DNA from: Stentor roeselii
Lineage: Eukaryota > Ciliophora > Heterotrichea > Heterotrichida > Stentoridae
Length of the DNA: 64,000 bases
Reading direction: 5' to 3'
Assembly (NCBI GenBank): GCA_006503475.1
Contig: RSEH01000233.1
Coordinates: 1 to 64,000, forward strand
Shown here: positions 8,990 through 64,000 of the stretch, in pieces
How positions within the stretch are numbered: the first letter of the stretch is position 1
Layout: every line of letters begins with the position of its first letter
The notes under the pieces: generated by a model
Database searches by the model: none
What the model was told of the DNA's origin: nothing
Seen by the model: the letters and a program-made list of their open reading frames with translations, nothing else
Made by a program: the position numbers and the translations under genes

Positions 8990-9397
8990 CTAATTACGGG
9001 CACTTCTTCGGCAGTTTGGACAATCGATGCGACATCGAAGCCATCTGACGATGCAGTCATAATGAAAGATATGGCCACAAGGAAGTTTTAGCCCGTCAAA
9101 GGAGGAGCTTAAGCATATTGAGCATTCGCGGGAGGTACCCTTGACTTTAACCAGCGCCTGAATTTCACTTTCACTAAGGCCAGTCGATGTGCAATCATAA
9201 GAATCCCTCATCAGAAACTCGACCTCTGAAAGTGGAACATCAAAATAAGGGTTATCTTCATACGAAAGTCCACTGACTGCTTAGCCCTTACTTAAATTTC
9301 CAGAAATATGATCCATGACTGACTCATACTCATTATCCCAGTCGACGAAGTTCAAATTATACTTCCCTGAAGACTTGATCGGTCTTTCCCTTTCCAT
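8990..9397 (-). CDS. RING-H2 finger protein, two exons
   Basis: The gene is complement(join(8990..9276,9292..9397)) and encodes 130 residues. Removing a 15-nt intron (9277-9291) joins an upstream exon starting at ATG 9397 to the RING exon in frame. The C-terminus is a complete RING-H2 finger with C87, C90, C102, H104, H107, C110, C121 and C124 ([25 protein letters not shown]). It is therefore a probable RING E3 ubiquitin ligase of the small soluble kind. The N-terminus is acidic and has no membrane helix. The start lies only 23 bp from the divergent TRIM-like gene. Confidence 0.88.
9277..9291 (-). other. 15-nt intron of the RING-H2 gene
   Basis: The sense sequence is GTAAGGGCTAAGCAG. It brings an in-frame TAA, and its removal restores the frame. 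It matches the local consensus with TAA at positions 9-11. Confidence 0.88.
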
Positions 9398-9420: not shown

Positions 9421-11295
9421 ATGGAAGACTTATACTGCGGGGTCTGCAAGGCAGTGCCTAAATTTCCTCTTCTCCTTCCTTGCTGTTCGAGAACTATCTG
9501 CAAAGACCACAAATCATCAAAGTGTCAATTTTGTTCTACTTGTTTAGATGGTTTGAATGTTTCTAGTAATACTATTTTGATGCAGTTTTTTAACTCAAGA
9601 ATTTCTGAAATTTGTGATCGATGTGAAGAACTTCCTAGTAATGTCAGCTGTCATCAGTGCAGGGCTTCGCTTTGTAAGGAATGCTCTTTGTTTATTCATG
9701 CTGATGGAGTCTATGCCCGGCATGTCTTATCGAATTGTTCGCAACTTATCAATAGCTTTGATTTTAATGAAATTTGCTCTGCTCATAAACTTCCTCTTAA
9801 GTTTTTTTGTGAAAAAGATTGGATTCCTTTGTGTAGAAGGTGTAAAGATTCTCATGCTAATCATTCACCTGCTACTATTGAAGAGGTTTTTCATGCGAAA
9901 GTTGAGGAGTTTCAGGAGAAAATTGAAGGATTTGATAGAATGGCAACACAAGTAAACTCAAATCTAAACAGATGCCGAACCTTCCTAAACAACTTAAACG
10001 ACAACTACGACCTGAGCAAAACCAATTTACAAAAAAAATTCCACCAACTAAAGCAATCACTCGACTGGAAGCAAGAAGAAATCCTACGAGAAATCGAAGT
10101 GATATACAAAAGAAAGCAAATAGAAATCTCATACTTTCTAGACCCGCTAGAAAAAACCAAAGAAAAACTAGAAGAAATCTCAAAATTTCTCTCAACCTTA
10201 AAAAATCTATCCCCATCCTCAGTCCTATCAAACCTATCCTACATTTCCCATCTAATCTCCCAAGCAAGTCATTCAGACCCAGTTCTATTCCCAGGTTCAA
10301 AAATAAACTTTCCCGTAAAATTCGAGATCCAAGCCTTACAAAGCCAAATCGATTCTCTAATCATTTCCGACGACGCTCTATCAATAAACTCATCAGTTCT
10401 AAACACGAGTTCCCTTCCATCAACAACTCCTTCAATAATCAAATCTCCTCAACTTCGTATAAAAACAAGTGAAAAGCCTTCATCAACGACTCCAGTGAAA
10501 TCTCGTTCAAACTCTCGTGAGTCAATTCAAGGAAACTTAGAAGAAAACCCTTTAGAGCCTCGTTTATTTAAAAAAAAACTTCAAAGTGCGACAGCGATTC
10601 AAGTGTCTTGGACTCACCCTCCACGGGCAGTTCAGGGTCTTAATTATCATCTTGAATACGGTGTTGGCATGAAGCTGAACAACGTGGAGCAGTTCAGACA
10701 AGTCTACAAAGGAACTGCCCACACCTGCATCATCACTGACCTGCTTCCCAAGACTTCCTATCGCTTTCGAGTCGCTGCCGCCTTGGCCGAGACCAAAGGT
10801 GACTGGTCAGAAGTCGTCACAGTCCCAACTTTCGACTACCAAAAAATCGACCCCGGGTCTTTCGCGGCTCACGCAAGCGAAGTCCTTCGAGGACAGGAAA
10901 AATTTCTTCAATTTGACAAACCTGGACTGGTCCTTGCTGCGAATCCTTATTCTTTTGGAAGATATGCTTGGGAAGTCAAGATTTTTAATAATGCACTTTC
11001 ACCTGCTGATGGAAAAGTACTGAGAATTGGAGTCTGTGCAGCGAAAAGTAAAGTTGTTCATGGAATTGATGTTGAGTTTCAGGTACTTAGGGGAAATGCG
11101 AAGGTGAAGGTTAAGTTAGATGTTGAAGGAAGAGCTTTGAATGTGGTTAACTCTTGGAATGGAAGTGAATCGAATTTTTCATTGCCTGATGGGCCTTTGA
11201 TACCTGCAGTGCAGTATAAAAATAATAAGAATTGCACTGCTCCTGTTAGACTGGTTATTGATTTTGATGTTGACTACTCCGAAGCTATTGCTTAG
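9421..11295 (+). CDS. TRIM-like protein: zinc fingers, coiled coil, FN3, SPRY-like end
   Basis: The 624-residue protein starts with a Cys-rich RING-like segment (residues about 6-43). A B-box-like finger follows at about 65-110, then a clear B-box at about 118-150 (CSAHKLPLKFFCEKD, CRRCKDSHANH). A long coiled coil spans about 155-290 and a low-complexity linker follows. A fibronectin type III domain sits at about 385-475 (VSWTHPPRAVQGLNYHLEYG, TSYRFRVAAA). A SPRY/B30.2-like region (SFGRYAWEVKI, VLRIGVCAA) reaches the end. This order is that of TRIM proteins with FN3 and SPRY. The N-terminal RING is degenerate, so ligase activity is uncertain. No intron was seen. Confidence 0.85.
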   Translation: MEDLYCGVCKAVPKFPLLLPCCSRTICKDHKSSKCQFCSTCLDGLNVSSNTILMQFFNSRISEICDRCEELPSNVSCHQCRASLCKECSLFIHADGVYARHVLSNCSQLINSFDFNEICSAHKLPLKFFCEKDWIPLCRRCKDSHANHSPATIEEVFHAKVEEFQEKIEGFDRMATQVNSNLNRCRTFLNNLNDNYDLSKTNLQKKFHQLKQSLDWKQEEILREIEVIYKRKQIEISYFLDPLEKTKEKLEEISKFLSTLKNLSPSSVLSNLSYISHLISQASHSDPVLFPGSKINFPVKFEIQALQSQIDSLIISDDALSINSSVLNTSSLPSTTPSIIKSPQLRIKTSEKPSSTTPVKSRSNSRESIQGNLEENPLEPRLFKKKLQSATAIQVSWTHPPRAVQGLNYHLEYGVGMKLNNVEQFRQVYKGTAHTCIITDLLPKTSYRFRVAAALAETKGDWSEVVTVPTFDYQKIDPGSFAAHASEVLRGQEKFLQFDKPGLVLAANPYSFGRYAWEVKIFNNALSPADGKVLRIGVCAAKSKVVHGIDVEFQVLRGNAKVKVKLDVEGRALNVVNSWNGSESNFSLPDGPLIPAVQYKNNKNCTAPVRLVIDFDVDYSEAIA

Positions 11296-11325
11296 GATTG
11301 TATTTTAGTAATTTTGGTTATTATT

Positions 11326-12720
11326 ATGTGTAAGGGATGCTGTAAACTTCATCCGGTTTATCTTTTGGTTTTTTTGACTCTTGTTAATGTACTCATTTAT
11401 ACGGATAGAGGGGTACTTGCTGCTGTTGCTTCTACTATTGAGTCGAAAAAGGATGGATTGGGACTTGAGGTTCAGGAAATTGGAGCTGTCGGGTCGTTTT
11501 TTATGCTTGGGTATATTCTTGCTGGGCCTATCTTTGCTCATTATGCTCAGAGAAGCCACCCACTAAACCTGATAGCGATCGGTTTAGTAGTCTGGGGACT
11601 AGCGACATCAGCAACAGGTTATTCCAATTCCTTCTGGACACTATCTCTATCCAGAGCGCTAACAGGTGTAGGAGAGGCTTCATTTGTCTGTCTTGCACCT
11701 CCCTACATCCTAGACAACGCTCCACCCTCAAGTAAAACGACCTGGATCGCAATATTTTACTCAGCAATCTCAATCGGAAACGCCGTGGGGTACGTTTACG
11801 GTAACATCACAAATGAAGTTCTTCACGGTTGGTTTTGGCCTTTTTACATCGAGTCAATCTTAATAATCCCCTTCATTCTAGTCTGCATCTGTGGAAAAAA
11901 AGACCACATTCAAATAACCTCCGAAGAAACCCTGAAACCTGAAGTTTTTACCGTGACCCAGCAACTAAAAATCTTAGGAAAAAATTTAACTTACGACTTC
12001 CTCGTTCTCGGCTTCGCCGCCTTCATCTTCACAATGGGAGGCCTGAGCATGTGGGGTCCTTACATAGTCGAAAAGCTCTTCAACCAGACGGCAAGAACGG
12101 CGAACATGGTACTTGGAGTTATTATTTTAAGTTCAGGGATTTCAGGAACCCTTATCGGTTCTTTTGTTTTTGACTGTTTCATGAAAAAATACGTGGCTTT
12201 AGCTTCAGCTGGAAAAATTTCTAAGGAAACTTTGACGAACATTACAACAGAAAAGGCGAATTTTTTTCTAACAATCACGACTTTTTTTTCAATGGTCTTT
12301 GGAGTGGCTGGGTTACTTTTCGATGATTTTCTATTTTTCCAGGTTTGCATTTGGTTCTTTTTGTTCTTGATGTACATGTAAGAGATAGGAAGGAATAAAG
12401 GACCTGTGGCAATTGCTTTGATGAGTTGTGTTCCAAATCAACTTAGGGGCCAGGCTAATGCAATTGCAATTTTTTTCATGCATTTGTTTGGCGACTTCCC
12501 CTCGCCTTTCTTCATCGGGTATATTATTTCGTTTGATTTGTTTTGGGGAGTCATGGTCACTATTCTTTGGTTGTTTTGGGCTGTTTTTTTCTGGAGTCTT
12601 GCTTGGAATGTCTCTGTAAGGCTTATTTAGAGGTTTTATGGGAAAGATAATGGGTATATTTTTAAGAACTTCTGCAAAAGGCTTCAGGAAAATGACTTGA
12701 AACACTTAATTGGGGCTTAG
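11326..12720 (+). CDS. Spinster-type MFS transporter, three exons
   Basis: The gene is join(11326..12377,12393..12615,12631..12720) and encodes 454 residues. Two 15-nt introns hold the in-frame stops that otherwise split it. The protein has the twelve-helix MFS layout and spinster (SPNS) motifs: NVLIYTDRGVLAAV near the start, RALTGVGEASFVCLAPPYIL, and after the first intron NKGPVAIALMSCVPNQLRGQ and HLFGDFPSPFFIGY. Spinster proteins export sphingosine-1-phosphate or lysophospholipids, often from late endosomes or lysosomes; the substrate here is inference. Splicing across the first intron rebuilds the family motif MYMNKGPV exactly. Confidence 0.92.
12378..12392 (+). other. 15-nt intron 1 of the spinster gene
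   Basis: The sequence is GTAAGAGATAGGAAG. It introduces an in-frame TAA, and removal joins two halves of a conserved MFS motif. The usual internal TAA is TAG here. Confidence 0.88.
12616..12630 (+). other. 15-nt intron 2 of the spinster gene
   Basis: The sequence is GTAAGGCTTATTTAG, in phase 0, ending in an in-frame TAG. Without removal the protein loses its last 29 residues, which continue in the same frame. Confidence 0.85.
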
Positions 12721-12744
12721 ATGATTTTAATTAAGTTATTATAA

Positions 12745-14064
12745 ATGGAACCTACCAACGAACTGGAAAAGCCTGAAGAACTTGTTAGTCCTCCTGCTGA
12801 TGTCAAGGCCGTTGAGGAGAATAAGAAAAAGAAAAAGAGAAGGGCGAAGAAGAAGAAACCGGCTGATGGCGGACCTTCTGGTCAGGAAGCACCTTTGCCT
12901 GATGTGCCGATGTTTGATAAATTTCAGGATAATAGTCACCTGCGTCGAGTCAAAAACTGGTCATCAGATCCTTCCTACAAGCAGACATATCCTCCAACAG
13001 TTCCCATCTCCAAGCAATTCGCAGAAGGCACCTTTCCAAAAGGTGAGGAAATGAGCTACACTAGCCGAGAAACACAAGAAGAGCATCGAGAACGTGAACG
13101 AATGACGTTTTACAACTATGACTCAATGAGAAAAGCCGCAGAATGTCATCGTCAAATCCGAAGATGGGCTCAAAGTGTTCTAAAGCCAGGTATCGAGCTC
13201 CACGATTTCTGCGAAGAACTAGAAAACTACACCCGAACCCTTCTCGAAAACGACAGCGTAGAAGCCGGAGTAGGTTTTCCAACAGGTGTATCCTTAAACC
13301 ACTGCGCTGCTCATTACACTCCAAATCCAGGAGACAAGGTTTACTTAGGAGTTGACGACGTATGCAAAGTGGACTTCGGTACCCAAATAGGAGGACGTAT
13401 AATCGACTGTGCCTTTACCGTTGCCTTCAACCCAAGATACGACAATTTAATCCAAGCGACTCAAGAAGCGACAAACGAAGGACTTCGACAAGCAGGTATC
13501 GACGCAAGATTCAGTGAAATCGGAGCAGCGATTCAAGAAACAATGGAAAGTTTCGAGGTAGAGATCGATGGAAAGACTTATAAAGTGAAAGCAATTCGAA
13601 ATCTAAACGGACATCTAATCGAGCCTTATCACATCCATGCAGGAAAAAGTGTTCCAATAGTAAAAAACAACGACACTGGAAGAATGGAAGAAGGCGAAGT
13701 TTACGCGATTGAGACTTTTGGAAGTACTGGAAAAGGTGTTGTTCATGATGACATGGAATGTAGTCATCATATGCTTGATTATGAAAGTTATGGAAAACCT
13801 GTCGCAATTAGAGACCCTAAGGCCAGGGCACTTTTAAAACATATTGAAAAGAAATACGGGACTTTGCCTTGGTGCAGGCGACATCTTGCTCGTGATGGAG
13901 AGACTAAACATTTGATGCCTTTAAGAGGACTTATTAATGCTGGCATCGTTGTACCTTACCCGCCTTTATGTGATGTGAAAGGTTGTTACGTGTCCCAAAT
14001 GGAACACACGATCTTGCTGAGACCCACTTGTAAAGAAATCATCAGCAGAGGAGATGATTATTAG
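12745..14064 (+). CDS. METAP2: Methionine aminopeptidase 2
   Basis: This enzyme removes the initiator methionine from nascent proteins in the cytosol. The 439-residue protein has the type 2 hallmarks: a polylysine N-terminal block (residues about 27-38, [14 protein letters not shown]) and the pita-bread catalytic fold. The five metal ligands are visible at D210, D221, H290, E323 and E420, and the substrate histidine at H190. These sit at a near-constant offset from human METAP2. The motif [17 protein letters not shown] is intact. The start is ATG 12745, preceded by TTATTATAA and 24 bp after the transporter stop. No intron or lesion is seen. Confidence 0.97.
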
Positions 14065-14092
14065 ATAAGTTAGATAGTCTGCTATAAACTTC

Positions 14093-16066: not shown

Positions 16067-17269
16067 ATGACGGACCTTGAAATTGATAAAGACTTTTTGA
16101 ATGACTCTGAATCGAATGATGAGTTTGACAGAAAATTCGAGGACTCCATCGTCGCCCATCGCGAAAGCTCTCGACCGTCTAGTTCTTCGTCGAGACCGAA
16201 GACCGCCTCGAGGTACCGCGATGAGAGTGAGTCTAGAACTAACCTTGTATCGACTAATACTTATCAAATTTATTTGAGACTTGCTAAGTTTATTGCTTTT
16301 AAGAAAATTTCTAGGAATGAACTTGGGTTTAAACTTGGAGACTACTTTACTGCGAATAAGTTGAAAGAGGTTTTTTTGGCTCTTGGATTTGATATTAGTG
16401 AAGGGGAAGTTGTTTTTATTTTTAGAGACTCTGGAATACCCAAAACTGGAGTCTTGAGTCTTGCCTTGTTTTGCTCAAAGGTCATTGAAGAGGAAGAGTT
16501 AGAATCTGAAGATGAATTCACCGACGACAGTAACGATTTAACCAAAACTCTACTAAAAGAAGCTCAAGAGTTAATAGAAAAACCCTCAAGAACCAAAAAA
16601 TCAAAAAAGAAGAAAAATAAAGCCGGGGTTGCGAAAATTGAAAAATTTTCTAAAATTGAAAGGTCTGGAAAAAGTGAAAAAATGACTGGCAGGAGCTTTT
16701 CAAGAGGTTCGGCTTCACAGCGACCGCCTTCAGGGTTTTCAATGTTAAAAAATACTTTAAGCAGAAATTATTTAAAGGAGAATAAAGTGAAGAGCCATCA
16801 GGAAAAAGCTGAACTTCAAAATACTGCTAATCTTTATAGAAGGGAATTTGAATTTGATTGTATTCAGAAGATGGGAGAAGCCAATGAAATATTACAAAAT
16901 CATGGGTCTGATGTAAGTTATCGTTGTTTGAGGAAAGATGATAAGAATCTCATGTGCCATATTTACATTAAAGAAAAATTCCAAGAAGAAATTTCTCTTC
17001 AAAACTTTTTGAGAAAATGGAAAAAACTCAAAGAAAGAAAAGCCAAAATTCTTAAACCCCCTGCTTCTCAAACTAGTTCAAAAAGTGCGTCAATAAACAA
17101 CGCAAAAGTGAACAAAACAGAAAGGCAAGAAGAAGTAAAAAAGTTACTCTTAGAGACTCGAGAGTTGACAAACAGTTTGAAAGTCCAGGTGAAAATGTTA
17201 GAAGATAAAGGAATAGTAAGAAGAGTAGTAGAGAAGGATAGTTTAGTGATGCTTAATTCTAGGATGTAA
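16067..17269 (+). CDS. Hypothetical 400-aa Lys-rich protein with EF-hand-like region
   Basis: The start is ATG 16067, only 10 bp after the SEC24 stop. The N-terminus is acidic and Ser-rich. Residues about 65-140 look like a helix-loop-helix calcium-binding-type fold (FKLGDYFTANKLKEVFLALG, VVFIFRDSGIPKTGVLSLAL), but the loops lack canonical acidic ligands. A Lys/Ser-rich stretch with a short KKKKN run follows, then a helical C-terminus with coiled-coil tendency (about 340-390). Paired degenerate EF-hands followed by coiled coil are common in ciliate basal-body and axonemal proteins, but I cannot name a family. Confidence 0.75.
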   Translation: MTDLEIDKDFLNDSESNDEFDRKFEDSIVAHRESSRPSSSSSRPKTASRYRDESESRTNLVSTNTYQIYLRLAKFIAFKKISRNELGFKLGDYFTANKLKEVFLALGFDISEGEVVFIFRDSGIPKTGVLSLALFCSKVIEEEELESEDEFTDDSNDLTKTLLKEAQELIEKPSRTKKSKKKKNKAGVAKIEKFSKIERSGKSEKMTGRSFSRGSASQRPPSGFSMLKNTLSRNYLKENKVKSHQEKAELQNTANLYRREFEFDCIQKMGEANEILQNHGSDVSYRCLRKDDKNLMCHIYIKEKFQEEISLQNFLRKWKKLKERKAKILKPPASQTSSKSASINNAKVNKTERQEEVKKLLLETRELTNSLKVQVKMLEDKGIVRRVVEKDSLVMLNSRM

Positions 17270-23700: not shown

Positions 23701-23710
23701 ACAAGATCAT
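17735..23710 (-). CDS. 1991-aa secreted repeat protein, probably surface-anchored
   Basis: The single-exon protein starts with a signal peptide (residues 1-14, MILFFTLFSLASSL) and ends in a hydrophobic tail (about 1974-1991) with no cytoplasmic part, as in GPI-anchored proteins. In between are about eight to ten copies of a roughly 130-residue beta-sandwich-like unit. Each unit carries a strand of the type GGSIEITFPSDY, a cysteine pair, and a VKGVKNPS..TSQFQIRT-type strand. An FN3-like segment lies near residues 1690-1780 (TTTTFTLTGLKASTRYSLFL). Many Asn-x-Ser/Thr sites are present. I do not know a named family. A coat or adhesion role is inference. Ten or more segments on the opposite strand look open but are shadows. 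Confidence 0.85.
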   Translation of the reverse strand: MILFFTLFSLASSLGFDELGSVWPSGKLPISNSYTNALKLSDYTFTFYTDHSLPKDSIIQVEFPSQFPENLGQSSCKSSLGPCTTSNTTVKVQITSALYRLKLTSLVIYSVQNPENQGGTGNFRLKTFENENLIDSNSRFGVAGIAQKVGNFISAGVNLVQDDDLTAGASARFEFKFKLNRDLLAWSWIRFTFPDDGFSFAEKPTCTGFKVEGFVLKGDLECYSEGNRVTLVGFNEDVPAFSHVGVRVTAGNPPFSVKTGSFAVETGKNLTNTVYDEMFGIPGITVKPGMITHVLMESCNQTVLSQGKEVIYRLSFLISNPVEQGGLIKILATQSFEFSGFFLVEMGLMDVSDTDIVNFSYDSSSYVLTISNFVGLKDEFIVLIFSMINPSTSGPTDPLIIRTFNSNGDLVDENSDSAFVNIESLTSPSTSSISFPSGNSASGSPINLKLSITPQSEIPSSGWIILTLPYGFTTESQSQTCYSKPTHESESSSPSCFYQEGKVHIQLFSDSPGVFGKFETGQVSSIRITSLLSPSKSGNYYFYFDTLNNEGVLIESGTAKGTLTSSSMSVSATVVHAGINTATIFSITADLNKDLHSGSPGKVTTDPVSYFEVEFPTMTGTDELFSVNLGLDSDVVPCRGISGITEKITCFVSTSPASASETTPVVVTISGFEMIHAPASVKIDFAGIFYVKSAQSGNVRVTTYEVSNRIRYDLESGTASFPAGVNMPSKSFYAVTLTLSEKKVQSSTTLSTGTSFTTSTASGNTDAFLILHIFQTHDGGYCENAELRCIVDSVVLDCICYYKADMILITLSSSFVAGSHTMQISGLVTPESVPSSNDDLLLYIIGSGSVKEYSSFSGKIPQLEAGKLSKVKITPSDSRQGTVFVGYSVVFSAEHLIPSGGSIEITFPSDYSLPSSSPEPSCSSGYLHAVSSSVSCSLSSNTLRLSDFQSVPAGNIIVVWVKGVKNPSVSETSQFQIRTQNKNDQIIDENSKSGSILLENEFETINLEFLNIEIFPTNANASAEYVFTFTPSELLGAGSTLKIDFPLKQFGSLPSSPTCRLSGEVTTFASCTVSASDLFIITDKDLPYKPLSVSVIGLKNFDEGTSESFGLSSYYDDVLVQSTSSSTISTTVTTTSQAGKLQVSNILFSPKNEAEKSTFEFYFSPVSGVSLSQNIIIKFPEDFDHHLGDNLHCWSEGLQGFLECELLHAWTLIVKKHDSFSPCTSCSIVLYVSGIFNPRQGKTGQFLLGILEGNTFIELNEFAGSVLVEDAPEYLEIIRSLPGSLYAREVQDLSFNVTCNLTIPDTLSGGQIWVDFSEDYVLTDSFLTCASSSFWANGTPKCSTIYSKVVMEGQTNSFQGNLMVVVQGLPNPLFDVLADYVTVEAADTFHNLIIARSYPNLDPSRFQYHYRGPLLSVNTNEKFYVRRGTYSKPIPITLSYPSALNLTLVPKSDPFQFIPSQIPLLLGESKTFFRINIPFNSEDKEYIITWSILGEIDPPFYTPLLKTKFEVTKDDLIPVKTEEIMPIPKGFSSLPVIIQLDQAPSEDLIIHLSLPDTITGVELSSQEITFKSGEFSKNFTLSVNLDVSRMQSKVTLSLSGTNAEAFNLLKSFINFQVQEESLLPEVLGAGVVKTSRTNATFTVSTTIFCWVYYAFALRGTQPPSFKETKSQGPASFVTTETRYGTLRVAGSTTTTFTLTGLKASTRYSLFLWAEDLTGVQSSSYSQIDFDTDQIFKTSQVRLKFTQVYLNDVEILKTSEVIQLYLSLHDWRVIRNYEETLQMDSNKVYSLQAQWPEVAFFIIDKVDTEEYPSPFKMIQRLAGFQKEFEKKLNNFDKSFKIYGKEVKVNPCFFDAFPTVVNETSDYRNISLSASLKEDGFVYAIALIADQDPGIPFAFQVFDGNDRLNRPALLAYQFSSAGITNNLTFTQINDNTTYHLYVICTNNNPGYVEKMDDSQVVKLVWTTDPKPPRSTFSINHSAVLIVFLWIILI

Positions 23711-53700: not shown

Positions 53701-56700
53701 GGATTAAATCCTTCCTCTTTTTTCTTGAGCAGTTTGGATTCAGACTATCCTAAAGTAAATATAAACGAAAAAATTAGAAGAGCAGATAAAGAAATTATCA
53801 ATCTTTACGAACATGACCAGAGAAAAATATCTGAAGTCTTTTTTACATTGATACAAGATCTTGATTACCTAAAAATTATAAATTCTTTTTCTGAAGTAAA
53901 ATGCTCTATTTTCAAAGAAACTTACATCGAAAAATTTAAATACTTGATTTTGACAGAACCATCAGTTCGGAACTCTGTAAATAAAGAAAGAGTTAAAACT
54001 AAGGGAAAAACTGATGAAATGTTTAAAGAAATTTTTATGTGTGCTGTTCATGGATGTTGCACTTCAGAATCTGAACTTTATGAAAATTTGATTGTCAACC
54101 CATCAGAGAGTCACGCTCTGTTTAAATTCATAAAAAACTATAAAACTAATAATACTCTTGAATCATATAAAAAAATATCGAAGTTTTTAATAGACTTCTT
54201 TAATGAAATCGCTCAGCAAACAATAATATTAAGAAAATCAAAAATTTTGTATGATCATTCTGAAGATCAAAAGAATACATTTATGAATTTTGCAAAATTT
54301 ATTTTGAATAATTCAATTGAAAATGAAAAATTCATTGAAAAATACAAAATTTTACTTGAAAATTATAAAAACATTGTGACAAACCTACATAATTTAAAGA
54401 TTTTTATTTATAAGTATTTTGTAAGAGACTCAGGTTTAAATTACTATTTACAAGAATTTGAAAATTTTCTCTTTGAAGTGTGGGAAATGAAACTAGGATC
54501 TATAAATTTCAGTCAAAACCTTCAAATGATTATTGATTTCTTTTCTTCGAAACTCATCCCTTTAAATTCCCGTATTTTTATTTCACTCTTCGATGGGTTT
54601 GAAACTGATAATTTCCAACATTTCATCACCGATAATTTCAACTACATCAAAAAAATTATACAAATGATAGAAAGTGGCCAAATCCTTCAAGACGAAAAAA
54701 TGATGAAATACTTTGTTTTGATAACAGAAGAAAATGAAATAGAAAAAGAATCAAAATTACTTTCAATATTTTTCTCATCACCTGATTCATCATTCAATTT
54801 CAACCAAACAACTATGTCTATTCTTTATTTTAATAAAGTAGATCATCTCATCAAATGCATGAAAGACTCAGCAAAACTATTAGAAATCGATGAAAATCTT
54901 CTTCAGCCTGATTATCAACAATTTGATGAAAGTTTAGACAGAAACTCAAACTTTTTGAATAATTTTATAGAAAAAAATATAACATCTGAAACTTTCAAAG
55001 AAATCGAAAAACTTTATGTTTTTTTCAAATCAATCAGAGAATCTCATAAGGCAATATTTTTAGTCAACAGTTTGCAAGATGACGAGTTAAGCTTCTGGCA
55101 GGAATGTTTTCAAGCAAACAGTGAAAATAAAAGACTAACTTTAGAACTAATCCAAACATTTTCAAATGTTTGGACATTTTGCCATATTATTAAAGGATCA
55201 AAAGAAAACCTGTTAAATTATTTCCAAAAAATTTTTGATTTATTGAAAAACCCAAGATACCAAAATTTTATTGAAGAACTTTGCAGATGTGATGATAGTG
55301 TTGAGGTTTTGGAGGATTATCACAAGTCTCTGAACAATCAGGAGCAAGGAAAATTGAATAAAATAAAAAATATTGCAAATAGATCAGGATTTCGCATTTA
55401 TTCATTACATTCAAAATACGATATCAAATTATATATCCTTAAAGAAAATAATGAATATGATATGAATTTGTTAGAACTCTCTGATTTGCTTGAGTTACGT
55501 GATCGAGCTCATCTTAGTAAATATATTATTGATCAAAAGTCAGAAAGTAAAGAAATTATTCAAGATGTTGAAGTTTATGAAAAATTTATAACATTTGTTG
55601 GCACCATCACTGAATTTATTTTGATTCTTGATCAACTATCTCAATCTTTATATAGAGATCGAATCAATCTTGATATCGACTTTTATGTTGAGAGAGGAGA
55701 ATATCCTGGGTTGATTTATTACTTTGAAGCATATAAAATATTGAGAGATGCTTATTTAATGGAGTCATTTAAACCTGCTACTAAAAGAAGTTATTGGATT
55801 AATTTTCTTAGTGGCGAAAGAATTATTTTGATGGATAAGTTTATTTTTAATACAATTGATCAAAACTTACAGAAAATAAGTAGTCTTCTTTATTTTATGC
55901 AGAAGATACCACCTCCAGTTACTTACATGCAAATGGACCCTCCAAATGAAATGTCAGAGAGACTCAACATAATTGCAAGCCAAATAGAATCCTATCAATC
56001 TTTTTCCAATCCCAAAGACTTAAACTTAAGAGGAGTAGAAAAAAAAGACCTTCCTTCCGGCCATTTGATAATAATTGAAAGCAAAGAGTACTACCGAGCG
56101 ATTCTCTCAATCTACGCAATATACGAGAACTTAATTCCGACCATTGACATAATTTTCTTTTGTTACCTGTCATCAAGTTGGGAAGAGCTAAAAATGTTCA
56201 TAAGTCGATGTTTCCTAAGTCCAAAAAAGCATATTTACTCTCTTATATACCCAGAAAACCTTTCCTTAGAAAACCAGGCAAAACTCGAGTCAAAAATAAT
56301 GAAATCCTTCAAAAGTTCCAGTGAAAGATGCCTTGCAATAGTGACTTCAGACCCTCGAAGCAAAATAGTGAATAACTTGAGATATCAAATCGTAATTCCA
56401 ATCGAAAGGTTAAACTCTTACACCCTTCTTAAAAATGAGCAGATTCTTGAAATAATTCACTTAGTCGGCGCTGGCATCCACATCGTGAGTTCAGAAAAAT
56501 CAGGTCTAGGCAAATCGATGTTCATTCAAAGAGACTGCTTGAACCACAGAGCAAGTTTCAAAGAAATTGATTTATCAGGAACTTATGAAAGTTTCGATCT
56601 CGGCCAGAGCCTCGAAAGAGTTTTTTCTCCTGATCCAACAATTTACCACATTCAAGTGAGTTTCTTGTCATACCCTGACCATTTCGAGCACCTTATATTT

Positions 56701-59700
56701 TCTTTATCGATATTTAAACAACACTATTCCCAGAAGTCACTTTTTCATCTTCCAGGTAATTCAAAGCTGTACATTGAACTGGCTAACACCTTTAAAGACA
56801 GATTATCGACTTCTTTACCTTTTTTAAAACTGATGCCGAATCGAAAACATATCAAGTCCTTTGACCTGAATGATTTAGTCTTGACTCCGGACATGATTTA
56901 TGTGAGCAAGTATTTAGCCAGTTATGACTTCGGCACCATCAACTTTTCTGACTTTTCATATAAAAAAGATTCTCAAAGTACTTCACCCAACATGCAAGAA
57001 ACCAAAAACTTGCTTCAAAAGCATTTTTTAAATGGAAAAAACGAAACAAATTTCCACCAACTTCAAACTTTCATCAAGATTTTATCAAAACTTCTGCAAA
57101 ACTTCGAGCGCAGCGTTTTTTCCGCTGAGTTCATGAAAATCCAAATGGAGGAGTTTCAAGGAACTGACGGAAAAATACTATTTCAAGATATCAGGTCTTC
57201 AATGTTAGAGAGCATGATTGAAACCACCAAGGAATTCACCTCGAAATGCACTGAAGGTGTCTTTAAAGGACAGACTTCCGCGTTGAGAAGAGCTGAAAAC
57301 TCTGAAGTTGACGAAGAAGAGCAGAACCTGGCAGACTGTAGCATAAAATGGGAAAATTCTAACCATTTCATTGTTCTTTTCCTTGAAGAAGGTGACTTCC
57401 TGAGTATCTATCGTGACGGGAGCATGATTCCTGACAATATAAGAAGATTGATTCTAAGTCAAAACTTCATCGAAGAGTCAGTCTCTAAAGGTAGAATAGC
57501 GAATTTCAAAAAATCATTAAGAGACAATGTGACAGGACGAGGCCAAATCAAAGACTATTCCCAAATCCCCAGTTCTCAGCTAATCGAAGAAGTTCTTTCA
57601 TTTTACATAAAATATTCCTTGCGAAAACAAAGAGAAAACTCCGCACGTTCCTCTATCTCTTCAAAAAGAAGCTTTTTCGAAGACATAAAAAGTGAGAGAA
57701 TCTTAGAACTGGTTGAAACTGGGTATATTTTAACCCCAGACAACTTTTTAAAAATGAACTTGATCTTCCTGAGGTGCATCTCTAACTTGCCACTGATCAT
57801 CATGGGCGAGACAGGCTGCGGGAAGACCTCTCTTCTGAGGTTTTTCATAAGAGAAGTACTTCAAGAGACCCTGATAATTCTTTATATTCACTCAGGGATC
57901 ACAGTGGACCTGATAAGAACCCATCTTCAAGAAGCTAACACCCAAGCATCACAAGTCCCGACTCAGCGAGTCTGGATTTTCTTCGACGAGTTCAACACAA
58001 GTGACTTCATCGGGGTCATAGTCAACATTCTCTGTGAAAGGAAATTCGAAAACATGAACTTTTGCCAGAACTTGATTTTCGTCGGGGCTTGCAACCCTTA
58101 CCGTGTGAAGTCAGCCGTGACCTATCAGGAAAACGTGGGTATCAAGAAAAAACAGCTGGGCAAAGCCCAGCTGGTGCATTTGGTAAAGCCCTTGCCGGAC
58201 AAGGCCATTGAGTTCGTTTGGGACTTCGGGGCGTTGAAGGAGTTAGAAATCAAGGAATACGTAAAAAGCATGCTTCTCAGAGTTCAAATCTCAAAACTGG
58301 AAATGTTCGTCGAGTTGATCTGCGCAGTTCACAGATACTTTCAAGAAAAAGAAGACCTGAGCAGTGTAAGTTTGAGAGACGTTCACCGGTTCATTCAGTT
58401 ACATGAGTGGTTTTCGAACTCTATCAATAAAAGAGACTCGTTAAAGGTCGACCATCCGGTCGACCTGGAATATGAAAATTTAAAGGAAGAGCTTCAAGAG
58501 TTAAGAGATTTAAGAAATATCAGGGCAGGACTTCTCGCTTTGCTTCATTGTTACTATCTCAGGATTTCCTCCACCAAGCAACGAGAAGAGTTCTTCCAGG
58601 TGATCATTGAAATCATTCAGTTTTACATGCACCAGGCGAATCAGGACCATATCGAAAAACTGATTCGCTTTGAACAACTGGATTTCATCAGCAGAATGGT
58701 CATTCCTGAAGGAATCGCACTTAATCAAGCCTTGACTGAAAACGTTTTCGCGATTTTGCCTTGTTTAATGAACCAGATCCCGATTTTCATCTGTGGAAAA
58801 CCTGGATGTAGCAAGTCTCTCGCCATTCAAATCATTCAGTCGAGTGTGAGAGGAGAAAAAAGCACTGACGGGTATTTAAGAACTTTGCCTGAACTCAATG
58901 TTGTGTCTTTTCAAGGGTCGGACTCTTGCACGTCTGAAGGAATTGAAGAGGTTTTTAAAAAAGCTGAAAAATTGAAAAGTTATGGAAAATCTATTCTGCC
59001 TGTTGTCTTGTTTGATGAAATCGGACTTGCTGAAGTCTCGAGATATAACCCGCTTAAGGTACTTCATCGACTTTTAGAAGCTGAAAATTGCACTGTTGGG
59101 TTTATTGCCATTTCGAATTGGAGACTTGATGCTTCCAAAATGAACAGAGCGCTTTATCTTGCAAGGCCGGACCCTGAACAGGATGATTTGGAAAAAACAG
59201 CTGCTACTTTGTTTAAGTCTTTGAAAGTGACGATTGATGAGAATTATATGAAGAGTCTTGCAAACGGTTATTTTAATTTAAAGAAAATCCACGAAAAAAC
59301 TTCATTCCAAGATTTTTATGGATTAAGAGACTTTTACCACATGATAAAGTTCATCGGCAATAAACTAAAACAATCAGAGCTCCAAGAGCAAGACGAAGAA
59401 TCTTTCAAACAAATAGTCCAACATTCTCTTCTCCGTAATTTCAACGGTTTAGAATCCACAAAAACAGCGATTTCAAAAAGTTTCAAATCATTCCACCAAG
59501 AAAATCTCCAACGCCTTCCAGTTTTCACCTTAATCGAAGAAAACCTATCAGAAAAGGACTCAAGATACCTGATGATAATCTGTGCAAAAGACGTATCTCT
59601 TTACCTTCGGTCAACTCTAATAAAAGAAAAGCTTCCAAAAGTGAGGTTCATCTTAGGAAGCACTTTGGAAAACGACATCCTCGAAGAAAGCACTCGATTT

Positions 59701-62700
59701 CGAGTACTATCAAACATCATCGGGTACATGGAGCAAGGAATTCCGATAGTGATGCAAAACATGGACATCATCTACAGTTCTCTTTATGACCTCTTCAACC
59801 AGAACTTCATTAAACTTGGAAATTCTCGAAAGTACTGCAGAATCGCTCTTGGCACACAGTTCAACCCGAAATGTTTTGTCAATGACTCGTTTAAAGTAGT
59901 TGTTTTTCTTGATAGTGATGATGAAACTTTGAAATCTGCAGATGCTCCTTTTTTGAATCGATTTGAAAAACACTTCGTTTCAGTTAAAGAAATTTTATCG
60001 GAAAAATGTGTTAAACTTGCTTTGAAAATCATGGAGTGGGTTGAAAAAGCTTTGGATATTGGAAAGGAAAATATTTTGGATCCTGTTGCAGTTTTTCCTT
60101 GTTTTTCACAAGAAACTCTTAATTTACTGATCAAATTGTTTGAAAATAATCCAAATGTTGAGGAAAAATGCAAAAAGTTCCTTCTTAGAAATGCTTCTAT
60201 GGACTTGCTGATTTTAGGAAAAATGAACAAAATGTCAAGAGAAGAAAATGAAGAAATTTTAAATAATTGGAAAAATCTTCATTCGATAAGTTTTTCTCAG
60301 TATTTGTTAAATTTGATGATTTCTGATGTTTCTAAAAGAGTTAAAATGATTTCAGTCACTTATGACCCTCTGAGCATTGATGAATGGAAAATGGACTGGC
60401 ACGAAAAGCTGCAGATAGAAAAATGCAGCAATTTTAAATCCGAAGAAGACCTAAGAAAAAATTTTCACTCGTTTATAACAAGCCCTAAAGTCTTATATTT
60501 GTTTGAAGTCGAATACCAGAAAGAATCTCAGCACATCAGATTCATTGTCAATGTCTTTGATGAAATTTTTTCAGAATTTGACGAAAGAGGTGCAAAAGCT
60601 ACAAAAAATTTAATCATTTTAGTCAGAATGGCAAGAAACAATGAAAAAAGACAACCTTTAGGAATTTTTCAAGGCTGGAAATTCAGGATGTTTGAAGATC
60701 TTCACATGAGTCCTTTAGAAATCGCTGAAGAGATTTTGGAGCTTGACACAAAAACAATTGTGACTAATGAGAAGTTTTTTAAATTTGAAGAAAATATTGG
60801 AGAAATCAGTCAAAAGGCAATTGAAACTATCTCTTATGACAGCAACATCTTTTCATTTGATCAGATTGTTGCTTATAAGGGTTCAGTTCAAGAAGCACTA
60901 AATGAAAACCTGGAATTGGTTAAAGCTTTCAAAGAGAGGATTTTAACTTTGATGGAAAAGTTTCTGTTAAGGTCAAGAGAAAAATGGTATGTTTTACTAT
61001 TTACAAGCGAAAAAATCATTAGTCAGGCATTGTCTGTAAAAGACGCTCTGAAAATTTATGTTTTTGAGAAGTTTTTCACGGAATTTACGAAACTCATCGT
61101 TCTTTGTGAGAAAAAAGGAGTACTGTCTCAAATTATATCCTTGAAAGGAAATGACTGCTTTTCGTTCTACTGGGTTCAATACTTTAATAACTTGATAACC
61201 AGCAATATGAAGGTGCAGCTGATGCCTGAAAGTAATCAACTTAAATACACTGGAATATTACTTACTCCATTTATTTATGAAGATATATTAAAACTTCTTA
61301 CTTATTCAGAAGAACTGATGGAAAGTAACACAGAACAAAATGAGTTTTCGAAGTTGATTAAAACTTATCATGCTGAAAAATGTATCTGGAAGGAATATAG
61401 TCTCAATTTTTATTCTAGTCCTGATTTTCTCAATTACTTTATATCAGACTTTGTGAGTATTGTTCTCTTGAATCAGCAATATAATGCTTTTATTAATTAT
61501 TGTGTCCATTTTATATCTATTTACTACCTTTCTCAGTTTCCTCAAGAAGAAAGAATCCCTCGAATACTGCTTTTTAAAGAAACAATTTTAAATTTTTATA
61601 AAGTTTTCGAACTTTATTTTAAAATTTCTTGTTCAGATACAATTACTTCATATTTAAATTCATGTGATACAAGCCAGCCTGATTACCTTGAAAAAATTCC
61701 TGGACTATTCGACATCATGGCTTTTGACCTTTTCCCAAGTGAAGAAAAACTCCAAAAAGCTGGAAGTTTGAAGGACTATTCAAGAAAAATCTTTATTTTT
61801 CAAGAACTCGTTGAAATGATATTACCTGAAAATTCTGAAAATCTTGAAAACTTTGAAAAACTAGAATTTTGGGCACAACTTGCAAGACTTGATAATCTTG
61901 ACTTGATAATTTATGTATCAGGTAAAGTTTACAGTGAAAATTTTGAAGTTTTATTTGAAGTGGAGACTATCAACCAGTTTATTGAAAATTTAGGAGAAGA
62001 AAACATTGCAGTAAGTAGATTCAAAGTTTTTTATTTTAAGAGTTTGTTAGAAAGAAATCCAATATATCTGAAAATTGTAATTCGAGAAATTATTGAAAAT
62101 GATTTATGGAAATATGCAGGAGTACTGATTGAGTTAATACTGGAAATGACTGAACTTAGAGAAAGGATTTTGAAATTAGAAAATAAGGAGTTTCAAATTT
62201 TGGGTTTTTTATCAGAAAAAAATGATTATTTAAGGATATTGACTGAAATTCTTCAAGAAACAAATCCTGACTCCAACTTTTCGATACTTTTATCTGATAA
62301 AATTAGTCAAATCGATATTATTGATGGTTTAAAGCATTATAATGGGATATGCAGAGATTACTTTAACATGATTGATGGAGAAGACTTTTTTAATGAGTCT
62401 AATTTAAAAGCAATCATTGCATGTGGGAGACTAAAACGTTATCTCTTTGAATTTTCTCAAGTTTTAATCAAAGAAAGCAATGGCTTCGAGGTTGAAGAGG
62501 AAGACATGGTCAGAGACCTGAAAACTTTACTTGAAGAAACCCAAATGATGGAATACGAACTCTACATAATGAAAGTTTTGAAGTCTTTATGCGGAGATAC
62601 CTTATTTAAACTAACCCAAATAGTGAAAACAATAAAATACAAGTGGAAACACGACATAAACCAAATTTCAATCCAGTCAAATATGCATATATTCCCTTTC

Positions 62701-64000
62701 TTCGATATAAACAACGATTACTACAAACAACTTTCTTTGAAACTCTCTCAAATCGACCAAGACTTCAACGCAATCGACCAAGAAATCAATTCAGCCTTGA
62801 CCCCTGAACTAAAACTTCTCTTCGGACTAGCCTTCATCAATCAAGTTTACCTTCAACACCGTTTCAACACCTTCGACTCAAGCAAGTTCAAAGCCTGGTA
62901 CGAATTAAAGCAAGACCATCTTTCTAAAGTCCTTGGTCCAGTCTACCTAAGATTAATATATAGTCTCATTTACAACTTTCCCAGTAGTCCAATGCTTTCT
63001 ATCAATCCAAAGATAGAAGAAGGGCACTTCTACAAGGCCCAAGCAATGATAACTTCAATACTTTTAGCGATTTCCCATCAACAGTTTCCAAATCCTCTTT
63101 CAAGTCTCTTATTCGAAGGCGATTCTAACCCAACAAGAAATATTTTCAATAGAAGTGAGTCTCTTTTCATTCCAGGCAGCGAAGTAAACAAAATGCAAGA
63201 CTTTTTAAAGCATCACAGAGAAAACTTCGAAATCAACAAAAGTACTACTTTCAGCACGAGTTATTCAAAAGGAGGGTCTTACGTGTGTTCAAACACTTGT
63301 GACTATTTTTACATTGTCAGCAACTGCGGAGGGACAGTCCAAATCAGCCGTTGTCCTTTTTGCAATTCAGAAATCGGAGGAACCGGGCATCGGTCTGTTC
63401 AAAGACCTGGACATCGGAACTTGTCAGACGATGAAGCAAGACAATTCCTTCAACAAAGATGCGAATTTTACAAAAGAACTCAAGTTAAAGGACTGAATGT
63501 TTCAGGAAACAACAACTGCATCACAGCTCCAAGAGAACTGAAACTTCGTCTTTCTTATTTTTTTCTGAATTTTTGTGTTAATTCGATTTTTTACTTTTGT
63601 AAAGCTTCTCGAATTTACCCTGATGAACAAATTGCTGAAATTTATAAGGTGAAAGAGTTGGGAATGCTTGAGATGAGGATTTGTGAGTTGATTGATGAGG
63701 ACTTTAAGGAGGTTTCAGGGTTTTTGAAAGGAGAGGACTGCTTCTACTGGGTTCTTGCTTGTGTCACTGGGGTGAAGAGGGTGATTGACGTTCATCGAGT
63801 GGAGCCGAGGACTGATGAGATAAGAACTGCCTTTGAAAACGACTTTGAACGGCTTATCACGTCGACTGACTTCAACTCGCTGATCAACTCTTACAAAAAA
63901 GCGCTTAACACCCAGCTTCAGCCTTCAAACCTCATCAAGTACTTAGACGAGCTGGAAACCCCTCCTAATGACTCTTATTCTTTTCCTTTTTACTTCAGAG
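50785..64000 (+). CDS. RNF213 (mysterin)-like giant AAA+ protein, 5' part
   Basis: A single open frame runs from ATG 50785 to the right edge (4405 codons, no stop), so the 3' end is missing. The first about 1850 residues have no recognised domain. A degenerate P-loop follows at residues 1902-1912 (SSEKSGLGKSM). The next AAA module has Walker A GETGCGKTS (2341-2349) and Walker B WIFFDE (2397-2402). The next has Walker A GKPGCSKS (2671-2678), the GxPGxSKS form special to RNF213, and Walker B VVLFDEIGLAE (2740-2750). RNF213-type signatures KMNR, FYGLRDFYHM and LNRFEK follow. Residues 4168-4202 are an RZ-type finger (C4168, C4172, C4181, C4190, C4193, H4202, IGG). No RING was found between AAA and RZ. 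Human RNF213 (5207 aa) is an E3 ligase in immunity and lipid droplets. Confidence 0.93.
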   Translation, partial: MNGFNSSESQARSPDPHAEERNKEISILMQESKKVKTDLESTFNLEVQLEIIPLMSLVADMSKFSENIQAFWRHVKVFDQIGPVWNVKVLNSALDYSISQKTSEEMVLSIQDFVKGRFFIVKQEEYWIEVRMLLETSLSYFGLIVIDFNLDFEITILVCAGNEDSKNMVKQDCFLEYQGLGKRLLPLELIGFDRLERLIVKVDDFLIPGRISEHEMENIGKIIDDDFKVNQMNLDFENDLGEKNKMQIDKEIEKNDTDPKNIENLEKKSEENLLLRNQLDEKEEYWYEKQSEILDDNPNRENFNYNEIMKDLNDKSKQNKSPDSPKENKLPVLFEDSKQQSVGLNLTDDLKILKENIENNKEKYLNLINRSEYFESWIRFILFYHKYEKYCSKHFDLYSNLDLLWKISVYDDFFENLISFGEEDFLVYLHKILIIAKGYIPEDIESFHEKNQINYIMAPIRIDKINLRPLLSVFYFEESMISITPTISILGFWDESKNKELLNNFERDHKNIIKIQEVFGRKSTSQMVIVEKNERLIPIKNISRKSSNSEAIIHFVVNMSRFKENSQINLVDEHIEEIIPASLVMTQGKRSLSLFKSSIRKSQSFKIQIVEPGLMYNSKKFEALEFRRYTGDYEFLFDVNFNFSWSWKNYEKVTMAQHFTVYSQYLLNSSDQELLDHFCEKFSSELKESIFNYETEKNVICFINEAVAMNETLNFHKTYTILVLLSFLKIFPFKNFELNISSNVINCLMIRKNDLMQSFRERHSFPNAFKGLVKLIIYNNLKNNHFYDILYTITDYRVLKNILMNLFQEYADKKQFFTDSDFQIYFNFIVKVSSKFQLLLTQKLISQYKNLLVITTYFIENEKFTLEKAGKLKIFIDALNNIEVTNAEFLEFLIIMNSKQESFIFQGDHITKFISKHFRNIIKINQQELPIIKKILYNLVPKYLDSFDKKAFVEKMIRFVSFSTSYEYIEIIGLNPSSFFLSSLDSDYPKVNINEKIRRADKEIINLYEHDQRKISEVFFTLIQDLDYLKIINSFSEVKCSIFKETYIEKFKYLILTEPSVRNSVNKERVKTKGKTDEMFKEIFMCAVHGCCTSESELYENLIVNPSESHALFKFIKNYKTNNTLESYKKISKFLIDFFNEIAQQTIILRKSKILYDHSEDQKNTFMNFAKFILNNSIENEKFIEKYKILLENYKNIVTNLHNLKIFIYKYFVRDSGLNYYLQEFENFLFEVWEMKLGSINFSQNLQMIIDFFSSKLIPLNSRIFISLFDGFETDNFQHFITDNFNYIKKIIQMIESGQILQDEKMMKYFVLITEENEIEKESKLLSIFFSSPDSSFNFNQTTMSILYFNKVDHLIKCMKDSAKLLEIDENLLQPDYQQFDESLDRNSNFLNNFIEKNITSETFKEIEKLYVFFKSIRESHKAIFLVNSLQDDELSFWQECFQANSENKRLTLELIQTFSNVWTFCHIIKGSKENLLNYFQKIFDLLKNPRYQNFIEELCRCDDSVEVLEDYHKSLNNQEQGKLNKIKNIANRSGFRIYSLHSKYDIKLYILKENNEYDMNLLELSDLLELRDRAHLSKYIIDQKSESKEIIQDVEVYEKFITFVGTITEFILILDQLSQSLYRDRINLDIDFYVERGEYPGLIYYFEAYKILRDAYLMESFKPATKRSYWINFLSGERIILMDKFIFNTIDQNLQKISSLLYFMQKIPPPVTYMQMDPPNEMSERLNIIASQIESYQSFSNPKDLNLRGVEKKDLPSGHLIIIESKEYYRAILSIYAIYENLIPTIDIIFFCYLSSSWEELKMFISRCFLSPKKHIYSLIYPENLSLENQAKLESKIMKSFKSSSERCLAIVTSDPRSKIVNNLRYQIVIPIERLNSYTLLKNEQILEIIHLVGAGIHIVSSEKSGLGKSMFIQRDCLNHRASFKEIDLSGTYESFDLGQSLERVFSPDPTIYHIQVSFLSYPDHFEHLIFSLSIFKQHYSQKSLFHLPGNSKLYIELANTFKDRLSTSLPFLKLMPNRKHIKSFDLNDLVLTPDMIYVSKYLASYDFGTINFSDFSYKKDSQSTSPNMQETKNLLQKHFLNGKNETNFHQLQTFIKILSKLLQNFERSVFSAEFMKIQMEEFQGTDGKILFQDIRSSMLESMIETTKEFTSKCTEGVFKGQTSALRRAENSEVDEEEQNLADCSIKWENSNHFIVLFLEEGDFLSIYRDGSMIPDNIRRLILSQNFIEESVSKGRIANFKKSLRDNVTGRGQIKDYSQIPSSQLIEEVLSFYIKYSLRKQRENSARSSISSKRSFFEDIKSERILELVETGYILTPDNFLKMNLIFLRCISNLPLIIMGETGCGKTSLLRFFIREVLQETLIILYIHSGITVDLIRTHLQEANTQASQVPTQRVWIFFDEFNTSDFIGVIVNILCERKFENMNFCQNLIFVGACNPYRVKSAVTYQENVGIKKKQLGKAQLVHLVKPLPDKAIEFVWDFGALKELEIKEYVKSMLLRVQISKLEMFVELICAVHRYFQEKEDLSSVSLRDVHRFIQLHEWFSNSINKRDSLKVDHPVDLEYENLKEELQELRDLRNIRAGLLALLHCYYLRISSTKQREEFFQVIIEIIQFYMHQANQDHIEKLIRFEQLDFISRMVIPEGIALNQALTENVFAILPCLMNQIPIFICGKPGCSKSLAIQIIQSSVRGEKSTDGYLRTLPELNVVSFQGSDSCTSEGIEEVFKKAEKLKSYGKSILPVVLFDEIGLAEVSRYNPLKVLHRLLEAENCTVGFIAISNWRLDASKMNRALYLARPDPEQDDLEKTAATLFKSLKVTIDENYMKSLANGYFNLKKIHEKTSFQDFYGLRDFYHMIKFIGNKLKQSELQEQDEESFKQIVQHSLLRNFNGLESTKTAISKSFKSFHQENLQRLPVFTLIEENLSEKDSRYLMIICAKDVSLYLRSTLIKEKLPKVRFILGSTLENDILEESTRFRVLSNIIGYMEQGIPIVMQNMDIIYSSLYDLFNQNFIKLGNSRKYCRIALGTQFNPKCFVNDSFKVVVFLDSDDETLKSADAPFLNRFEKHFVSVKEILSEKCVKLALKIMEWVEKALDIGKENILDPVAVFPCFSQETLNLLIKLFENNPNVEEKCKKFLLRNASMDLLILGKMNKMSREENEEILNNWKNLHSISFSQYLLNLMISDVSKRVKMISVTYDPLSIDEWKMDWHEKLQIEKCSNFKSEEDLRKNFHSFITSPKVLYLFEVEYQKESQHIRFIVNVFDEIFSEFDERGAKATKNLIILVRMARNNEKRQPLGIFQGWKFRMFEDLHMSPLEIAEEILELDTKTIVTNEKFFKFEENIGEISQKAIETISYDSNIFSFDQIVAYKGSVQEALNENLELVKAFKERILTLMEKFLLRSREKWYVLLFTSEKIISQALSVKDALKIYVFEKFFTEFTKLIVLCEKKGVLSQIISLKGNDCFSFYWVQYFNNLITSNMKVQLMPESNQLKYTGILLTPFIYEDILKLLTYSEELMESNTEQNEFSKLIKTYHAEKCIWKEYSLNFYSSPDFLNYFISDFVSIVLLNQQYNAFINYCVHFISIYYLSQFPQEERIPRILLFKETILNFYKVFELYFKISCSDTITSYLNSCDTSQPDYLEKIPGLFDIMAFDLFPSEEKLQKAGSLKDYSRKIFIFQELVEMILPENSENLENFEKLEFWAQLARLDNLDLIIYVSGKVYSENFEVLFEVETINQFIENLGEENIAVSRFKVFYFKSLLERNPIYLKIVIREIIENDLWKYAGVLIELILEMTELRERILKLENKEFQILGFLSEKNDYLRILTEILQETNPDSNFSILLSDKISQIDIIDGLKHYNGICRDYFNMIDGEDFFNESNLKAIIACGRLKRYLFEFSQVLIKESNGFEVEEEDMVRDLKTLLEETQMMEYELYIMKVLKSLCGDTLFKLTQIVKTIKYKWKHDINQISIQSNMHIFPFFDINNDYYKQLSLKLSQIDQDFNAIDQEINSALTPELKLLFGLAFINQVYLQHRFNTFDSSKFKAWYELKQDHLSKVLGPVYLRLIYSLIYNFPSSPMLSINPKIEEGHFYKAQAMITSILLAISHQQFPNPLSSLLFEGDSNPTRNIFNRSESLFIPGSEVNKMQDFLKHHRENFEINKSTTFSTSYSKGGSYVCSNTCDYFYIVSNCGGTVQISRCPFCNSEIGGTGHRSVQRPGHRNLSDDEARQFLQQRCEFYKRTQVKGLNVSGNNNCITAPRELKLRLSYFFLNFCVNSIFYFCKASRIYPDEQIAEIYKVKELGMLEMRICELIDEDFKEVSGFLKGEDCFYWVLACVTGVKRVIDVHRVEPRTDEIRTAFENDFERLITSTDFNSLINSYKKALNTQLQPSNLIKYLDELETPPNDSYSFPFYFR

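Follow-up and report, generated by a model that had tools for sequence, protein, structure and literature searches.

The sampled genome of Stentor roeselii is built of units of about 1.1 kb in which either strand drifts from A+C-rich to G+T-rich composition, with sharp resets between units that are blind to gene direction. On the plus strand, the smoothed track climbs gradually from A+C-rich to G+T-rich over some 1.1 kb and then falls back abruptly, and when both strands are read 5' to 3', each unit is A+C-rich at its 5' end and G+T-rich at its 3' end. The window, which is the whole stretch of 64,000 nucleotides analysed here, comprises positions 1-64000 of a 74,115-bp contig (RSEH01000233.1) from an assembly of 44.39 Mb in 522 contigs (GCA_006503475.1). 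A set of 28 hand-chosen ORFs was used first, for autocorrelation and step scores, and automatic sets with cut-offs of 90 to 150 aa were used later. The earlier junction fit covered the window and stretches L011-L030, and the later one the window and L011-L034; orientation and later junction fits drew on 25 sequences totalling 304 kb. The window's long frames stay open under the standard code, and a reading of TGA as Trp was set aside as unneeded by them.

The signal is carried by the K residual, defined as third-position G+T minus A+C corrected by codon family, across the 28 ORFs (16,900 codons). Its autocorrelation runs at 0.05-0.10 for lags of 1-40 codons (z = +6 to +34 against 100 synonymous shuffles), falls to 0.03 for 41-80 (z = +24) and turns negative, at -0.02, for 121-260 (z about -24). 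At third positions, a given G+T or A+C state persists for about 240 bp, and its opposite prevails at 360-780 bp. The switching between G+T and A+C claimed in the original prediction is therefore real, and neither amino-acid composition nor shuffled synonymous codons, the explanations against which it was to be tested, can account for it (z up to 34). In the same ORFs the purine axis has almost no autocorrelation overall and the GC axis behaves differently. Measurement on the plus strand across genes of both directions leaves the autocorrelation curve unchanged, which bears out the claimed independence of gene direction, the plus-strand orientation being common to genes of both strands. Codon positions 1 and 2 track the pattern only faintly, in agreement with the claim that the choice falls mostly on synonymous third positions. 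The pattern had been placed within coding sequence; it is indeed present in ORFs, but this placement is too narrow, as noncoding bases correlate with adjacent third positions and the sample from the whole genome carries the pattern too. A nearly identical curve was obtained from 20 further 10-kb stretches on 17 contigs, and the pattern thus belongs to the genome at large, not to a single locus.

The pattern had also been described as alternating blocks, of which the switching stands and the symmetry does not: changes from G+T to A+C are sharp resets while changes from A+C to G+T are gradual, giving sawtooth units. A segment model with a linear rise from A+C to G+T in each unit followed by a reset, applied to coding third positions only, scored 1841.5 log units over the 25 sequences, as opposed to 1147.3 for the mirror-image down-ramp, a difference of 694; five synonymous shuffles gave -564 to -635 and -601 to -669 for the two ramps. 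The up-ramp orientation is preferred in 23 of the 25 sequences, the exceptions being L019 (-0.2) and L021 (-4.5). Step skewness is +0.57 in plus genes and +0.75 in minus genes, with 30 shuffles lying about 0 (maximum 0.19), and the steps over threshold comprise 28 drops and 24 upward steps, the strongest scoring 7.3 and 5.5, respectively. This asymmetry bears on a scrambled germline. Segment scrambling is known from other ciliates, and neighbouring segments placed in opposite orientations would turn a uniform germline bias into alternating somatic blocks. Such blocks, however, would be square and sharp both ways, and the advantage of 694 log units for a ramp with one sharp edge makes scrambling highly improbable as the origin of the pattern. 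The mean fitted unit is 1141 bp (5-95% range 359-2118; n = 226 units, later fit), a length that depends on a prior with a mean of 1000-1100 bp; prior means of 800 and 1300 bp scored 28 and 4 units lower in an earlier run.

The features of the window are given below, where a junction is a sharp drop from G+T to A+C, has no strand, and is accompanied where available by paired counts of third-position G+T:A+C in the 150 bp to the left and then to the right. All 11 of the 11 junctions tested reach p < 3e-4, the junctions having been chosen from the same data.

9421..11295, plus strand: ORF with sawtooth, G+T-rich to 9936, then an abrupt drop to A+C and a renewed rise
9926..9948: junction, step score 7.3, posterior-confident at 9938; 38:11 to 6:42 at 9936
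11540..11562: junction, step score 6.4, posterior-confident at 11550; 40:9 to 16:32
12933..12955: junction, step score 4.7, posterior-confident at 12945, later fit 12937
16413..16475: junction, step score 4.9 at 16424, earlier fit 16423, later fit 16470
17735..23710, minus strand: ORF with four sharp internal drops, its sawtooth blind to gene direction
19512..19539: junction by step score and both fits; 36:14 to 16:32
20372..20392: junction by step score and both fits; 40:10 to 12:38
21200..21250: junction by step score and both fits, outside the posterior-confident set; 39:11 to 10:38
22430..22450: junction by step score and both fits; 37:12 to 7:42 at 22440
25900..25920: junction, step score 4.2, posterior-confident at 25911
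27206..27226: junction, step score 7.3; 41:7 to 11:38
28217..28237: junction, step score 5.4; 36:13 to 14:34
29444..29464: junction, step score 5.8; 32:15 to 11:35
32385..32405: junction, step score 5.2; 35:13 to 10:40
33228..33275: junction, step score 4.5, earlier fit 33254, later fit 33228
46393..46436: junction, step score 4.9, earlier fit 46426
50785..63999, plus strand: putative RNF213-like frame (a name from the original prediction) of 4405 aa, open at the window end
59275..59325: junction in the 4405-aa frame, step score 4.7; 34:14 to 13:36
62405..62474: weaker junction in the 4405-aa frame, step score 3.3 at 62464, fits at 62405 (earlier) and 62431 (later)

Each of the block edges that had been read from the letters (19490, 20390, 21240, 22430, 9935, 59290 and 60350) has a fitted junction no more than about 40 bp away (19522-19529, 20381-20382, 21210-21240, 22439-22441, 9936-9943, 59285-59323 and 60350-60381, respectively). 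The sawtooth is present but weaker in the long frame at 50785-63999. A DNA search of this assembly with the ORF at 9421-11295 returned its self-match alone. The AT-richer first 7 kb of the window also holds a duplicate of about 0.7 kb (2929-3625 and 4894-5614, 74.7% identity).

The later fit places 251 junctions in the 304 kb, and posterior mass gives one per 1022 bp, a density that is partly prior-dependent. The posterior mass amounts to 179.7 within ORFs and 117.7 outside them, and 113 of the 205 junctions of the earlier fit are confident. Junctions occur once per 1256 bp deep in ORFs and once per 915 bp in the remaining sequence. Where ORFs are separated by at least 60 bp, a drop is commoner in the gap (0.33-1.00, n 5-18) than in interior controls (0.16-0.23) in 11 of 11 classes, these being the small orientation-by-size classes with data. 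ORF pairs less than 60 bp apart form four classes, of which one lies slightly above its control (0.27 vs. 0.22) and three lie below. In minus-minus gene pairs 200-800 bp apart upward steps equal drops in frequency. Of six paralogue pairs, two differ in phase (L018/L023, -0.17; L037/L039, 0.11), as expected from gain and loss of junctions; the other four have positively correlated phases (0.87, 0.79, 0.42 and 0.41), which counts against the explanation favoured below. GC content is about 0.32 at junctions and 0.35 at 400 bp, an AT-rich dip that is tied to noncoding junctions, and is flat across deep-ORF junctions. Nucleosome-linked repair had been offered as one cause of the pattern; the scale of about 1.1 kb and the flat composition at deep-ORF junctions argue against it. 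Scans of k-mers near junctions yielded no convincing motif among the many words tried, the weak leads at deep-ORF junctions being TATA (15.1 vs. 10.4), GGCA/TGCC (12.5 vs. 6.8) and TGCA (17.1 vs. 11.2).

From the start of a unit to its end, A and C give way to G and T, at four-fold sites of plus and minus genes alike and also in noncoding DNA. From left to right at four-fold sites of plus genes, A goes from.466 to.239, C from.227 to.065, G from.066 to.189 and T from.240 to.507; in noncoding DNA, C goes from.174 to.087 and G from.092 to.173. Since these amplitudes come from the data already used for the fit, they are upper estimates. GC at four-fold sites stays between 0.25 and 0.35 along the unit. 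Over the same course the log-odds of T/C are -0.17, 0.51 and 1.46 and those of G/A are -1.34, -0.69 and -0.33, and noncoding T/C rises in eight of eight one-sided contexts. Third positions and noncoding sites thus display a transition asymmetry that is graded along the unit, as in a deamination gradient. Purine-ending codons fall from left to right in six four-fold families (log-odds 0.06, -0.36 and -0.72), which indicates that transversions take part and that transitions do not act alone. A context signature of a specific deaminase was considered as well; the coding data suggested a mirror-image cytosine signature, but noncoding DNA has no context preference and the candidate was dropped.

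Because the pattern is nearly GC-neutral, is shared by noncoding DNA, ignores gene direction and touches codon positions 1 and 2 only faintly, strand-specific mutation fits best among the three causes first suggested, and we infer a mutational origin for the bias. Selection on codons or mRNA, through translation speed or folding, could instead favour A+C or G+T codons in alternating stretches, and several observations speak for it. The signal is strongest at synonymous sites, context effects are confined to coding sites, and the glycine codon GGT goes with the A+C side in coding and the G+T side in noncoding DNA (window and L011-L034); for Gly in coding sequence, the T/C and G/A ratios shift as expected, yet purine-ending codons gain. 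In addition, a tubulin-family ORF (PF00091; L041 33-1382) is A+C in 11 of its 12 third-position bins and has no ramp, perhaps owing to codon selection in a highly expressed gene. However, noncoding DNA carries an identical ramp, plus- and minus-strand genes are alike in plus-strand orientation, and drops are also found in gaps between genes. As the main cause, such selection is disfavoured and we regard it as very unlikely; mRNA-structure control, which had also been proposed, is disfavoured by the same noncoding pattern and the likeness of both gene orientations. The GGT exception and the rampless tubulin-family ORF point to some codon selection on top of the mutational pattern.

The sequenced genome looks like a heterotrich ciliate macronucleus. 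Searched for as three tandem copies, CCCTAACA, which we take to be the heterotrich ciliate telomere repeat, matches the assembly 220 times in forward and 327 times in reverse orientation, as opposed to none for the reversed control, and most of the positions among the matches listed are contig ends. The whole genome holds 12 Piwi-domain matches, 11 of which lie within open frames of more than 750 aa. Together with the telomere repeats, these are in keeping with a nuclear-dimorphic ciliate equipped with a small-RNA system. Two probable 15-nt introns (GTAAG...AG), recognised by eye near 12378-12392 and 12616-12630, break the transporter-like frame that starts at 11314; in Blepharisma, introns are reported to be predominantly 15 and 16 bp (PMC9942806).

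The strand whose 3' end points at a junction is the G+T-rich one. The drift may record the equilibrium of a heritable mutation process that is polarised by strand, consists largely of transitions and takes its polarity from the nearest junction. Germline DNA would be recurrently opened at junctions, most likely at internal eliminated sequences (IESs), which are excised from the macronuclear genome, or at other break sites. Resection from 5' to 3' would then expose up to several hundred bases of the 3'-ended strand on either side as single-stranded DNA, and deamination of the exposed strand (C to T, perhaps A to G) would make it G+T-rich at the end facing the junction. Purifying selection would restrict the visible outcome mainly to synonymous and noncoding sites. 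As a whole, this explanation of junction-set germline mutation by opening, resection and deamination is the one that we tentatively favour, at somewhat less than an even chance. IES excision takes place in the developing macronucleus, a nucleus that is not inherited; a heritable effect would thus require cutting or repair at junctions in the germline, which is assumed here.

We would tentatively equate the junctions with the positions of IESs or of recurrent germline breaks. In Blepharisma, 39,799 IESs are reported in 41 Mb, or one per 1.03 kb, of which about 70% are intragenic and three quarters are TA-bound (PMC9942856). The junctions described here, at one per 1.0-1.2 kb and mostly intragenic, come close to that density. 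At the exact position and with +/-5 bp omitted to avoid a composition artefact, TA at coding junctions is 11.1 where 11.7 is expected and where about 16.6, our own estimate from posterior sharpness, would be seen if all were TA; all-TA coding junctions are thereby rejected. At noncoding junctions TA is 14.5 vs. 12.5 (all-TA about 15.6), and AT is also up (15.8 vs. 14.4); within +/-15 bp of deep-ORF junctions the TA ratio is 1.09. A first gain of +67 log units for TA at junctions was discarded, its coding part having vanished once split by codon phase. With junction-adjacent bases omitted, the gains are +4.0 (coding) and +6.2 (noncoding) for TA and +1.6 and +7.3 for AT, a shrinkage that marks the TA gain as mainly an adjacency artefact; simulated coding TA gains are +10 to +13 if all junctions are TA and -2 to +4 if none are (three simulations each). 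TA is therefore not enriched at coding junctions, which leaves the IES anchor unproven. Among transposase domains, DDE_3 (PF13358) has no match in the genome, and PiggyBac (PF13843) has none there or in 14 control genomes, a result that does not imply absence.

The main rival to opening and resection at junctions is that each unit is a tiny replication domain, with starts that vary in its interior and ends at the junctions, so that a linear change in fork direction combined with leading/lagging asymmetry produces the ramp. The ramp is equally well accounted for in this way: scaling it to the length of the unit gave a score of 2008.5 and a fixed-length decay one of 2000.5, the two models handling sequence ends differently, and a linear ramp and an exponential decay lie too close to be separated. 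The leading strand is usually G+T-rich, and forks moving outward to junctions would normally leave the polarity observed here. On a large scale, the sawtooth skew of human N-domains is a counterpart. Such domains, however, would need a fixed terminus about every 1.1 kb, and the eukaryotic replicons known to us are far sparser. The lack of a convincing junction motif and of an AT dip at deep-ORF junctions also weighs against them, and we consider this reading unlikely. Alternatively, germline non-coding transcription converging on junctions could expose the non-template strand to mutation. This too would yield G+T-rich 3' ends on both strands irrespective of gene direction, and the 12 Piwi matches make small-RNA precursor transcripts plausible. 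Convergent transcripts with precise ends would be needed about every kilobase, though, and we know of none at such spacing, which makes this source of the bias quite unlikely. A bolder reading, plausible but less likely than not, divides the nuclear genome into strand-polarised mutational units of about 1 kb, some forty thousand in all if the 304 kb sampled stand for the whole 44.4 Mb. The germline would handle each unit like a separate linear piece with exposed 3' ends, recurrently cut, resected or replicated unit by unit, and the sites of germline breakage would show in the somatic sequence by itself.

Changes in strand asymmetry normally go with replication origins or transcription and span much longer distances; in this genome a reset occurs within genes about every kilobase, and gene direction is irrelevant. 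If IESs are what the resets mark, a somatic assembly could suffice for reading germline architecture; if breaks or replication units are, the resets would reveal a germline process of which we know no description. Caution is also called for with synonymous codons, whose choice in this organism is strongly dependent on position within the unit. No description of a kilobase-scale strand sawtooth in a nuclear genome was found in a literature search by title and abstract opening in which subscription journals were thinly covered. The sawtooth could thus be new as a genome feature; a more cautious view is that it could be a thousand-fold smaller variant of sawtooth strand asymmetry.

Several known systems resemble the present one in part. 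N-domains are of Mb scale and have an upward plus-strand jump at their borders, which are replication origins, with gradual change between. In the human genome they form a replication-linked sawtooth skew (PMC3320577 and others). Like them, the units described here form a repeated sawtooth of strand composition with one sharp edge, which recurs at fixed sites. They differ in being about a thousand times smaller and inside genes, with sharp edges that are G+T drops about 1.1 kb apart; these drops have the opposite sign to the upward origin jump, and no origins are known here. Organelle genomes offer graded bias at third-position and noncoding sites, as seen here. The mitochondrial heavy strand has a deamination gradient. 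The comparable gradients of chloroplast DNA are linear at third-position and noncoding sites, run from the centre of a region to both ends and are attributed to time spent single-stranded (PMC2695485). The present genome, unlike these, is nuclear, has one unit per 1.1 kb or so in the sampled stretches, and its single-strandedness is something we infer.

Closer relatives share other aspects. Blepharisma IESs likewise occur in a heterotrich, with a site per 1 kb or so, mostly inside genes but somewhat depleted there. They differ from the junctions in that the latter are known from somatic sequence only and are not enriched for TA in coding DNA, and the portion of the Blepharisma IES paper available mentions no compositional sawtooth (PMC9942856). 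For Halteria, the authors discuss cytosine deamination of a single-stranded strand (PMC7858049), and Nyctotherus nanochromosomes have a purine vs. pyrimidine bias within about 130 nt of telomeres (PMC2633312). Unlike Nyctotherus, Stentor has G+T vs. A+C as its main axis, and the bias spans the whole unit, runs through coding sequence and is found without telomeres at the junctions. As in the skew of ciliate nanochromosomes, however, it is strand-symmetric and set by the ends of DNA units, and it may share a purine component with them: six codon families have more purine at 5' ends, against a purine axis that has almost no autocorrelation overall.
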